DNA of 51,808 bases, from assembly GCA_949292525.1 (NCBI GenBank), contig CASEZJ010000007.1:1-51808 (forward strand), read 5' to 3'. The notes under the pieces were generated by a model. The model was not told the DNA's origin. It worked only from the letters and a program-made list of their open reading frames with translations, and did no database searches. The translations under genes were made by a program, and so were the position numbers. Origin of the DNA: an uncultured bacterium (GTDB lineage: Bacteria > Bacillota_I > Bacilli_A > Acholeplasmatales > Anaeroplasmataceae). Positions 1-49,512 of this stretch are shown in pieces. Positions within the stretch are counted from its first letter, which is position 1; every line of letters starts with the position of its first letter.

Positions 1-81
1 GTAAGCATTGTTCCAATTATTGCTTTTTTGATAAAAATAATTTACGTAATTCAAATCTTCATGATAAATATTACCTCATAA
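1..81. other. Unresolved left-edge coding remnant
   Basis: Two readings are possible and I cannot decide between them. On the plus strand frame 1 is open from base 1 to a TAA at 79-81 and gives 26 mostly hydrophobic residues (starting VSIVPIIAFLIK), which could be the end of a membrane protein. On the minus strand a GAGGT-like ribosome site precedes ATG at 62-60, but that frame stops after three codons; an overlapping frame starting at TTG is open to the edge. The promoter at 99-124 points leftward, which favours a minus-strand gene beginning here. Confidence 0.25.
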
Positions 82-98
82 AATTTAGTTTTTATGTA

Positions 99-124
99 AT
101 TATACCCCCCCCGTATTTTGTCAA
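99..124 (-). promoter_or_regulatory. Leftward promoter with G8 spacer
   Basis: Read on the minus strand, a perfect TTGACA (-35, bases 119-124) is followed by a 14-base spacer and a perfect TATAAT (-10, bases 99-104). The spacer holds eight consecutive G (105-112 as C on plus). Fourteen bases is shorter than the usual 16-18, so tract expansion by about three G would make it optimal. This is the layout of slipped-strand, phase-variable promoters. The controlled gene lies beyond the left edge. Confidence 0.5.
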
Positions 125-330
125 CAACTCTTGTTTTTGATAGTTTTGAATTTCCCCAAAATTAATTGTAACTGTAACTTATAAAGTTGTACCCACCACA
201 TATTTTTCATATTTTTTTACTTTCATTAATTAAATTCACCGGATCCGTTACTTTGCTGGGGGTAATTACAGAAAAAATATAATTTTTACCGGATTTAGAG
301 ACATTTCCCCCGGTTTTTATCCGTAAAATT

Positions 331-353
331 AAAAAAACCGGCAATTTAGCCGG
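331..353 (-). terminator. Intrinsic terminator of the natAB-like operon
   Basis: On the minus strand CCGGC and GCCGG (338-342 and 349-353) form a GC-rich stem with a 6-base loop, followed by a run of seven T (331-337). It lies about 125 bases after the stop of the ABC permease gene. Other CCGG-containing inverted segments at 240-325 are less clearly structured. The stretch 354-477 holds no gene I can support, only a possible degraded minus-strand tail near 362-400. Confidence 0.65.
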
Positions 354-477: not shown

Positions 478-1611
478 TTATTTATTAAACATGATTTTTT
501 CTGAATTAAACATTTTACCTAAAACAACACCAATAAGTACAGCATAAACCAAATTGCTTATTATTGATATTAATATTCCTGCTATATTAGCTTCTAAGGC
601 TAAAATAGTAGACATAGCTACTACGCTATTATAAATAGGGATAAAATAAACACCAGTGTTATTAGTAGGTAAAGAACCTGCCATAGATAATACACCAATT
701 ATAATTACTATTATCATAATTGGTGTTGAATAGGCTGAAGCTTCTTTAACACTTTTAGCAATAGCACTAATAACACTATATAATCCAACAAATAAGAATA
801 AAATAGAGATTATAATGAATAATAGATAAATATAATCAACTGGTGTATAAAATAATCCTATATCACCTTGGGTACTCATCAAGTTTGGTAATGACAAAAT
901 CACACCAACAAAACTTGAAATACCACCAACTAACGAAATTATTGCTAAACTTATAATTTTACCTATTGCTAGATATGTTCTTTTAAGCGGTGTTACAAGT
1001 AGGGTGGCGATTGTTCCCCTATCTTTTTCACCAGCTATACTTTCAGGAGCTACAGACATAACACCTGTGCATAAGAAAACTAGTAATAAGAATGGTAACA
1101 TCATTGAAATAAATGTTGAACTTGTTTGTTCAGCTGTAGCTAAATCGTTTGGTAACAATGTAAACTTATAATCAATAGGATCTACTTGTAGTTGAGATAA
1201 GATTGTTGAAGTTGAAAGATAGATGGTTTGTGATTCAGTTTTAGCACTATTGTAGTATAAATTTATACTTAGTTTAGTTCCTTGTTCTACGAATTCAACA
1301 ATTAAATCTGCATTTTCTTGTTCTATTTTTGGTTTAACTTCTGTTAGACTATCAGCAGTATTAAATGTTACGTTATATTCTAGTGCTTCAAATCCCGTTT
1401 CTAGGGCTGTAAGATAGTTTTCATTTTCACCAACTATATAAACTTGATAATTATAATCCTTACTAGCTGAAAAATTAGAGTTAATGATTGGACCCATAAA
1501 ACTATAAATTATATAAATTAGAATACCAGGAAGAATCATTGCTAGTAACATTCTATAATCAGTAAAAAATCTTTTTAATTCTTTTTTTAATACAACTAAA
1601 ATGTCTTTCAT
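478..1611 (-). CDS. ABC-2 type transporter permease (NatB-like)
   Basis: Membrane subunit of an ABC exporter of the NatB/ABC-2 class, 377 aa. One membrane segment lies near residues 20-42, then a soluble extracytoplasmic stretch to about residue 165, then about five closely spaced hydrophobic helices to the C-terminus (first near MMLPFLLLVFLCTG). The conserved ABC-2 segment with APESIAGEKDRGT follows the second helix. Its ATG overlaps the stop of the upstream ATPase gene (ATGA), so the two are translationally coupled. Substrate is not evident; NatAB exports sodium in Bacillus, but many relatives move other compounds or peptides. Confidence 0.85.
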   Translation of the reverse strand: MKDILVVLKKELKRFFTDYRMLLAMILPGILIYIIYSFMGPIINSNFSASKDYNYQVYIVGENENYLTALETGFEALEYNVTFNTADSLTEVKPKIEQENADLIVEFVEQGTKLSINLYYNSAKTESQTIYLSTSTILSQLQVDPIDYKFTLLPNDLATAEQTSSTFISMMLPFLLLVFLCTGVMSVAPESIAGEKDRGTIATLLVTPLKRTYLAIGKIISLAIISLVGGISSFVGVILSLPNLMSTQGDIGLFYTPVDYIYLLFIIISILFLFVGLYSVISAIAKSVKEASAYSTPIMIIVIIIGVLSMAGSLPTNNTGVYFIPIYNSVVAMSTILALEANIAGILISIISNLVYAVLIGVVLGKMFNSEKIMFNK

Positions 1612-2387
1612 TCTTGTTCACCACCCACATTTTCTTTATAAATGTCGAAAAATACGTCTTCTAAATTACGATCTTTACATAGTGATTTAACATCATCTGA
1701 TACTACTAGTTTGCCGTTAATTATAATTCCAACTCTATCACATAGTTTTTCTACTAAAGAAAAAATATGCGTAGATAAAATGATTGTTTTACCTTCATTT
1801 TTTAAATCTATTAAATAATCAGTAACTATTTTAGCTGTTAAAACATCAAGCCCGTTTGTAGGCTCATCAAAAATAATAATACTAGGATCATGACAAATAG
1901 CAATGACGATACTTAATTTTTGTTTCATACCAGTAGATAGATCAGCTACTTTAACTTCTCTAAATTCATCTATGCCAAACTTTTTAAATAATTTTTCTTT
2001 TCTTTCTTTGATTGTTTCTTCATTAATGTGATGTAATCTAGCAAAAAAATCAAATAAATAATTAGGTGTAAAAAAATCTTCTAGCTTTAATTCACTAGTT
2101 AAAAAGCCTATATTTTCTCTTACTTTATCAGCCTCTTTTATGATGCTAAAACCATTAACTAATGCATCACCACTATCTGGTTTAATTAAGGTAGATAACA
2201 TTCTTAATGTTGTTGTTTTACCGGCACCATTTGGCCCAAGTAAGCCATATATTTCTCCTTTATGAACATTAAAAGAAATATTATTAACTGCTACTTTAAC
2301 TTTTATTTTTGTTTTTTCTAGTTTTTGTTGTTTGCGTGACATATTAAATGTTTTACGTAGGTTATTAACAATTAAAATATCTTCCAT
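1608..2387 (-). CDS. ABC transporter ATP-binding protein (NatA-like)
   Basis: ATPase partner of the downstream permease, 259 aa from the chosen start. Walker A GPNGAGKT is at residues 51-58; the signature appears as LSTGMKQKLS, Walker B and D-loop as IIIFDEPTNGLD, and the H-loop as ILSTH. I place the start at the ATG preceded by AAGGAG (spacing about 8 bases); a longer open frame upstream adds 19 residues without a ribosome site. An unusual lysine-rich insert (residues 17-31) sits between the A-loop strand and Walker A. The family drives export from the cytoplasmic side. Confidence 0.88.
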   Translation of the reverse strand: MEDILIVNNLRKTFNMSRKQQKLEKTKIKVKVAVNNISFNVHKGEIYGLLGPNGAGKTTTLRMLSTLIKPDSGDALVNGFSIIKEADKVRENIGFLTSELKLEDFFTPNYLFDFFARLHHINEETIKERKEKLFKKFGIDEFREVKVADLSTGMKQKLSIVIAICHDPSIIIFDEPTNGLDVLTAKIVTDYLIDLKNEGKTIILSTHIFSLVEKLCDRVGIIINGKLVVSDDVKSLCKDRNLEDVFFDIYKENVGGEQE

Positions 2388-2502
2388 AAACTCAACTCCT
2401 TTGCGTATAATTTTATCATAAATCCACGGAAAAAAAAAGCACATTTCTATATTTTTACATTTAATTTACAGTTATAATTAAACCAATCATTATATTATAT
2501 AT

Positions 2503-20746: not shown

Positions 20747-21439
20747 TTAATCTATTGCTAGATTAATTTCCTTAATTAATTTTGCTATCTTCTTAGAATC
20801 AAACCCTTTTAATTTTTCTTTATAATCGTTTTTTGGTGTTAAATTTGATTCTATAAAGATAGTTTTAAAATTTAATGATTTAGCTGGTAATATATCGCAT
20901 TCTAAATCATTACCTATCATTAAATAATGACTAGCCATAGGGGTTTTTAGTTTGGCTTTTTTAAAGAATTCTAAATTAGGTTTTTTAATACCATAATCAC
21001 TTGATATGAAGATTTTCTTAAAATAATCTTTAATTCCTAATTCTTCTAATTCTTTTAAGGTAAAGATTGTTTGAGCATTTGATAAAACATAAAGATTATA
21101 ATCATTATTGTTTTTTAGTTCTTCTAATAGTTCAATTACCCCGTCATATAATTTAATGTATTTAGTTGATAATTTGCGAAAATTATAAGCTATATCATCA
21201 ATTATTAACATTTTATCTATTCCCTTAAATAATTTTGTAAATACATCAATTAGTTCAATTTCTTCTTTTTTCTTTTCTAATTTTTTAACTAACTTATAAT
21301 ATTTTTTCTTTAGTTTTAAAGGTTTATATATTTTGTATTTAGAAACGTATTTACTAAAATTATTCCAAAAAGTTATATCTTCTTCATCTGTACAAATATC
21401 TATTAAAGTTCCATATAAATCAAAATAAATATTGGTTAT
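20747..21439 (-). CDS. HAD-family hydrolase with a non-standard start
   Basis: Phosphatase-like HAD protein. The frame extends 76 codons upstream of the first in-frame ATG (21211) and contains the catalytic motif FDLYGTL; without this part the protein would lack its nucleophile Asp. It ends with motif III/IV (KIFISSDYGIKKPNLEFF, MIGNDLECDI). No ATG, GTG or TTG opens the long frame: I place the start at ATA (21439-21437), 5 bases after AAGGGGGGGG, giving 230 aa, the family's normal size. ATA may be a mutated ATG. It lies between glgP and malE; it could dephosphorylate a sugar phosphate, unproven. Confidence 0.65.
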   Translation of the reverse strand: MTNIYFDLYGTLIDICTDEEDITFWNNFSKYVSKYKIYKPLKLKKKYYKLVKKLEKKKEEIELIDVFTKLFKGIDKMLIIDDIAYNFRKLSTKYIKLYDGVIELLEELKNNNDYNLYVLSNAQTIFTLKELEELGIKDYFKKIFISSDYGIKKPNLEFFKKAKLKTPMASHYLMIGNDLECDILPAKSLNFKTIFIESNLTPKNDYKEKLKGFDSKKIAKLIKEINLAID

Positions 21440-21444
21440 GTATA

Positions 21445-21452
21445 CCCCCCCC
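21445..21452 (-). promoter_or_regulatory. G8 tract serving as ribosome binding site
   Basis: Eight G on the minus strand, preceded by AA and 5 bases before the ATA proposed as start of the HAD gene. It replaces the usual AGGAGG. The same 12-mer (TATACCCCCCCC on plus) occurs at 101-112. A homopolymer here could vary in length and alter translation. Confidence 0.4.

Positions 21453-48048: not shown

Positions 48049-49512
<1,464 letters not shown>

Follow-up and report, generated by a model that had tools for sequence, protein, structure and literature searches.

A putative phase-variable promoter with a poly-G spacer in an uncultured member of Anaeroplasmataceae and similar promoters in other Bacilli

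The window, which is the whole analysed stretch of 51,808 nt from an uncultured bacterium of the family Anaeroplasmataceae, bears close to its first base a promoter of sigma-A type that is probably phase-variable, with its spacer length set by a slippery G tract. Judged from sequence comparisons, this reading has a probability of roughly 83%. On the minus strand, positions 124..99 consist of TTGACA, AAATAC, eight G, and TATAAT, with a spacer of 14 nt, which is what the original prediction described (both hexamers perfect, 14 bases apart, eight G between them). Promoters of the same architecture recur in related genomes, they precede mainly genes of secreted or surface proteins, and their tracts differ in length between sister loci with unchanged flanks. 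On this comparative evidence, a homopolymer-switched promoter is the preferred reading, which for the promoters taken as a family is well supported.

Promoter and its setting

The genome of the bacterium (designated here as G000) is a draft of 1.24 Mb in 60 contigs, and the window starts at the first base of contig C7. The following features were recognized around the promoter:

1..98, minus strand: predicted leader or gene start, truncated where the contig ends (from contig position)
60..77, minus strand: GAGG (77-74) and ATG (62-60), possible start of a downstream gene (from sequence)
99..104, minus strand: -10 hexamer TATAAT (from sequence)
105..112, minus strand: G8 tract, flush with the -10 hexamer (from sequence)
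113..118, minus strand: AAATAC, first part of the 14-nt spacer (from sequence)
119..124, minus strand: -35 hexamer TTGACA (from sequence)
122..127, minus strand: possible weak alternative -35 hexamer, TTGTTG, with 3/6 matches and 17-nt spacing (from sequence)
338..353, minus strand: hairpin resembling an intrinsic terminator, between the ABC genes and the promoter (one in positions 1-600; mean of 0.2 in shuffles)
478..1611, minus strand: ABC-2 permease, located upstream of the promoter and used as syntenic anchor within the genus (Pfam PF12698, synteny)
1608..2444, minus strand: ABC transporter ATPase, adjoining the permease (Pfam PF00005)

The promoter sits beyond the 3' end of the ABC-2 permease/ATPase pair (478-2444) and points toward the contig end, and the contig stops 98 nt past the -10 hexamer. 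The original prediction expected a gene start directly to the left. GAGG and ATG could represent such a start, but the last 98 nt hold no clean frame and the gene is cut off. The frame of the ATG (62-60) reaches TGA after three codons, no clean gene start was recognized in any frame up to the contig end, and the three minus-strand frames of positions 1-104 are interrupted or without canonical start. When positions 1-400 were searched against the own genome, the sole match was the query itself; among the loci compared, none had an intergenic region that could be aligned with that of this promoter, and the leader pattern gave no match in viral contigs. The intergenic stretch 178-266 is 79% identical to G007 contig C9, positions 49008-49098, and it is possibly a dispersed repeat.

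The region beyond the ABC pair was compared with that in congeners. In G007, the ABC pair is followed by a phosphoesterase-like gene and then by a G9 promoter (17-nt spacer) with a secreted-protein operon. The arrangement in G003 is the same except for three more genes behind the phosphoesterase-like gene (named in both genomes by eye from sequence), and the promoter carries G8, also with a 17-nt spacer. Behind both tract promoters, the operon opens with a secreted-looking protein of 205-208 aa. A homologous operon is at the same place in G005, with the promoter TTGACA-N18-TATAAT, from which the tract is absent. The closest congener across the ABC region, G002 (91%), has an unrelated gene alongside and no tract at that place. 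Because a syntenic secreted-protein operon lies beyond the ABC pair in G003, G007, and G005, a secreted protein is a plausible product of the gene left of the window promoter. Relatives of the window ABC pair are present also in L015, a record from more distant Bacilli, where they stand directly behind a G9 promoter, the spacer of which is likewise 14 nt.

Contig C56 of the own genome (3,239 bases) was considered as the missing operon and rejected: for the AAA-type protein encoded in that operon, the own genome has only distant matches, located on C56 (36% and 35% identity), and the eight ORFs listed for the contig include no secreted first gene beside a promoter. An identical stretch of 28 residues of an AAA-type protein is encoded at both ends of C56 (locus L238), which looks like a circular contig or a collapsed tandem repeat.

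Occurrence of the promoter in Bacilli

Genomes were searched with the pattern TTGAC-N3..15-G7-N0..1-TANAAT, and the same pattern reversed served as control. Among 160 genomes of the order, 43 sites were found in 18 genomes, all of which belong to this family (55 genomes); the reversed pattern gave no site in the same 160 genomes, and a C7 version of the pattern was present in none of the 55 family genomes. After one site pair with identical surroundings was merged, 42 distinct family sites remained. Of the 134 runs of at least eight G in the family, 42 fit the pattern, and the 43rd site carries G7. The tract is flush with the -10 hexamer in 39 of the 42 distinct sites, and one base stands between them in three. 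When 395 genomes were drawn from the class, 32 matched, with 19 of these outside the order in seven other families, and in a draw of 392 genomes from the phylum (same class only, and overlapping with the class draw) 21 matched; the reversed control was zero in each. On viral contigs, the G8 promoter pattern was found once and the C8 pattern never.

Three distinct runs of at least seven G are present in the own genome, every one exactly G8, and two of them are inside perfect TTGACA..TATAAT pairs. The second of these promoters, TTGACA-AAAGTATACC-G8-TATAAT with a spacer of 18 nt, is upstream of a secreted-looking protein of 190 aa and a signal peptidase. Genome G252 has nine dispersed copies of the promoter, with G9 or G10.

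We lean, with clearly less confidence than for the window promoter itself, toward a wider proposal. Uncultured Bacilli (MAGs of Acholeplasmatales and members of at least seven further families in the class) may share an undescribed poly-G promoter cassette, in which G on the non-template strand, flush with the -10 hexamer, would combine a G-rich contact at -13/-15 with a slippage rheostat; spread over unrelated surface-protein genes and, in some genomes, paralogue families, it would give each population a combinatorial surface repertoire. No reports of such promoters in this lineage were found in titles and abstract openings of open-licence literature, which is weak evidence of novelty. The principle is already known, and the possible novelty is the occurrence in this lineage.

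Other G runs had different surroundings. The window contains two G8 runs (105-112 and 21445-21452), as originally predicted, with an expectation of about 0.03. Dinucleotide shuffles had a mean of 0.07, and one of 100 shuffles contained at least two, which makes the count alone only modestly unusual; the strong signal is the position of the G8 run and not the number of runs. The second run is not in such a promoter and belongs to a different element (minus strand, 21437-21452). An ATA codon (21439-21437) follows 5 nt after the run and is in open frame with a HAD-like hydrolase (ORF 20747-21211), in which the stretch DLYGT, HAD motif I, is included only with a start upstream of the listed ATG. 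In relatives, this site has G8 (G002) and G9 plus T (G005), and the 30-nt upstream flanks are identical. The run may serve as a ribosome-binding site for translation from an AUA codon. Six loci of one genus (L174, L179, L184, L187, L190, and L194) have TTATACT or ATATACT, G10, and TATATT or TATACT, with no TTGACA at promoter distance, and perhaps represent another tract-bearing promoter type. At L146, L147, L151, L153, L155, and L166, five of which are from one genus and one from another, CCTTGCC is followed by G8-G11 and then by TAAT or TAAC.

Tract length variation

The tract promoter of the 190-aa protein gene has G8 and a spacer of 18 nt in G000 vs. G6 and a spacer of 16 nt in G002. The two proteins are 95% identical, and the flanks are identical over 30 nt upstream and 24 nt downstream of the tract. 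More distant homologues have G8 and a spacer of 17 nt in G003 (76% identity), G8 and 15 nt in G004 (42%), and G9 and 18 nt in G007 (32%), and the promoter of the G005 homologue (35%) is without tract. Within a genome, an array of paralogues on contig C6 of G481, which is from another family of the class, consists of seven copies, one with G8 and six with G9, the flanks of which are 92-100% identical; the encoded proteins have a common secretion-like N-terminus, each with its own copy of the same tract promoter. Between G026 and G024, a change from G10 to G12 is accompanied by other changes, one of them in the -10 hexamer. The original prediction had proposed comparison of strains, and the comparison among relatives turned out in its favour, as tract length differs between sister loci while the flanks are unchanged (G8/G6 and G8/G9). 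From these differences between genomes and within an array, switching is proposed.

When all flank-matched pairs with at least one member of G7 or longer were counted, 16 of 57 differ in length and 41 are equal, although many of the pairs are from one array and not independent, a few are not promoters, and tract lengths in draft assemblies could be off by one base. The orthologous copies at L086, L097, and L100 all have G8. As most pairs, including these copies, are equal in length, slow drift fits the data too.

Spacer lengths and proposed mechanism

For ordinary TTGACA/TATAAT pairs, searched at 12-22 nt, the spacer is 16 or 17 nt in 85 of 138 among the matches listed (four of five genomes, the last of them maybe incomplete, with overlapping duplicates and G-tract sites dropped). 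Spacers of the 42 family G-tract sites range from 13 to 21 nt, with a mode of 18 nt (18/42), and their tracts from G7 to G11. At 34 G-tract sites outside the family, the spacer is 19 nt in 16 and 12 nt in four. If the comparison is limited to spacers of 15-21 nt, those of the family G-tract sites exceed the ordinary ones in length (Mann-Whitney p = 7e-6). The G-tract spacers are not scattered round the usual optimum but are about one nucleotide too long, which counts against the switch reading; for many copies, one or two slips may be enough to reach the optimum.

Repeats between the -35 and -10 hexamers are described as affecting the docking of sigma factor (PMC4081817). In the mechanism proposed here, replication slippage would add or remove G and change the distance between the hexamers, and transcription of the gene to the left would go up or down, heritably and reversibly. 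The spacer of the window copy is the second shortest among the 42 distinct family sites. With 14 nt at G8, the assembled sequence probably represents an off or weak state of this copy, in which the alternative hexamer TTGTTG (127-122) might leave residual activity. Tracts of G10 to G12 would restore a spacer of 16-18 nt. The claim that slippage by three gives the optimal spacing agrees with this, as G11 corresponds to a spacer of 17 nt and is within the observed lengths (5/42 family sites).

Among 74 ordinary promoters from three genomes, G makes up 31% at each of positions -13, -14, and -15 vs. 7-18% further upstream, and C is not enriched. Since the tract always presents G at -13 to -15, whatever its length, this may explain the use of G and not C in the tracts beside the -10 hexamer.

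Genes behind the promoters

A hydrophobic N-terminus was recognized in 52 of 61 first downstream proteins vs. 9 of 40 window proteins. The background in the same retrieved loci was 148 of 430 (Fisher p about 3e-14 vs. 52/61). The score was home-made, with a Kyte-Doolittle mean of at least 1.8 over 14 residues within the first 45, and of 76 distinct sites it covered the 61 with a Shine-Dalgarno-like start within 160 nt (the other 15 were excluded); 16 of the 61 scored proteins are cut by the locus end. Pfam domains among the 61 proteins were BspA-type LRR (7), Listeria-Bacteroides repeat (5), MBG (3), Big_3_5 Ig-like (3), fibronectin III (3), and N-methylation motif (2), and single cases included an IclR regulator and an ABC ATPase. 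Most promoters of the set appear to precede genes of secreted or surface proteins. The IclR-type regulator is preceded by a G9 promoter (L062, G007), by which a switch could act on a regulon.

The name TasA/CalY-like was considered for the 190-aa protein, for which no match to Pfam or NCBIfam was found. Next to it, a signal peptidase is encoded (TIGR02228, 52.1 bits vs. a cut-off of 51.85); with the SipW model it reached 54.4, below the cut-off of 190. In the own genome (L243, minus strand), a second copy of the leader and first codons of the gene for the 190-aa protein stands immediately upstream of that gene, and G002 is without this duplication.

Alternative explanations

The tract could be a fixed structural or regulatory element (stiff spacer, surrogate of an extended -10, or regulator site) and not a switch. 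The G enrichment of ordinary promoters would agree with such a role, as a flush tract supplies the G's at -13 to -15 and could explain the absent C tracts, and so would the 41 of 57 flank-matched pairs that keep one length. A fixed element is difficult to reconcile, however, with tracts that differ in length between identical flanks (G8/G6 and G9/G8) and range from G7 to G11 over 42 family sites. Furthermore, two G005 loci have homologous genes without a promoter tract, so the element is dispensable. This explanation is regarded as unlikely, and a slippery, phase-variable tract is preferred to it.

Errors of sequencing or assembly (two-colour poly-G, adapter read-through, or contig-end error) deserve attention, as the window begins at a contig start and some contig-end runs of relatives follow A-runs and adapter-like sequence (L180, L189, and L192) or are part of poly-G masses (L171); the poly-G runs of these four loci are probable sequencing artefacts of draft genomes. 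The window run is nevertheless followed by 98 nt of further sequence past its -10 side, and the same architecture occurs inside long contigs of many genomes, which makes an artefact very improbable here. Slightly less probable still is chance, by which promoter-like hexamers of an AT-rich genome would happen to flank G8. The number of G8 runs in the window is by itself only modestly unusual, and ordinary hexamer pairs have a real background, with 209 forward vs. 41 reversed matches in five genomes; in the own genome, 29 perfect pairs with 12-22 nt spacing were found vs. 12 when the pattern was read backwards. The reversed pattern with the tract included, on the other hand, was absent from the overlapping draws of 160, 395, and 392 genomes. 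Among 137 runs of at least seven G in the retrieved loci, both hexamers are perfect in 31, against a mean of 0.01 with shuffled flanks, and at most two hexamer mismatches are present in 56, against a mean of 2.2 with shuffled and 1 with reversed flanks. Chance is refuted for the promoter set, although a single copy could be a relic.

Comparison with known systems

Most knowledge of phase variation through simple repeats comes from cultured pathogens. If the homopolymer-switched promoter is real, a surface switch covering many genes is present in uncultured commensal Bacilli; it could be followed in existing metagenomes by counting G's in the reads, and within-host surface variation of ungrown organisms would become directly testable.

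Promoter homopolymers that alter the expression of a surface protein are present also at Neisseria meningitidis opc and Bordetella pertussis fim, the fim promoters carrying poly-C. The tracts of both systems are of C, whereas C tracts at that position were found in 0 of 55 genomes of this family. In Mycoplasma hyorhinis, the vlp promoters have a poly-A spacer. They resemble the present case as a set of surface lipoprotein genes in a Mollicute, each with its own slippery promoter, but the tract is poly-A and not poly-G, and the present promoters serve several unrelated types of protein. The vlp genes are named among the cases of promoter repeats (PMC3899988). Read-level variation of repeat length at BspA-like genes was described in another uncultured Mollicute, Candidatus Mycoplasma girerdii (PMC5476646), and 7 of the 61 proteins here have BspA-type LRR. 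The repeats of that organism are mostly dinucleotides judged by reading frame, and the word promoter is absent from the main text (PMC5476646).

The closest similarity is to meningococcal porA, where poly-G is likewise situated between the -35 and -10 hexamers, in agreement with the predicted likeness to known homopolymer-switched promoters. The level of PorA transcript in N. meningitidis follows the number of G in this spacer, and one nucleotide suffices (PMC3899988). The porA tract serves one gene of a Gram-negative pathogen, whereas here many loci per lineage of uncultured Bacilli are concerned and the tract is flush with the -10 hexamer. By analogy, the best reading of the window promoter is that it works like that of porA, with slipped-strand changes controlling the spacing of its hexamers.
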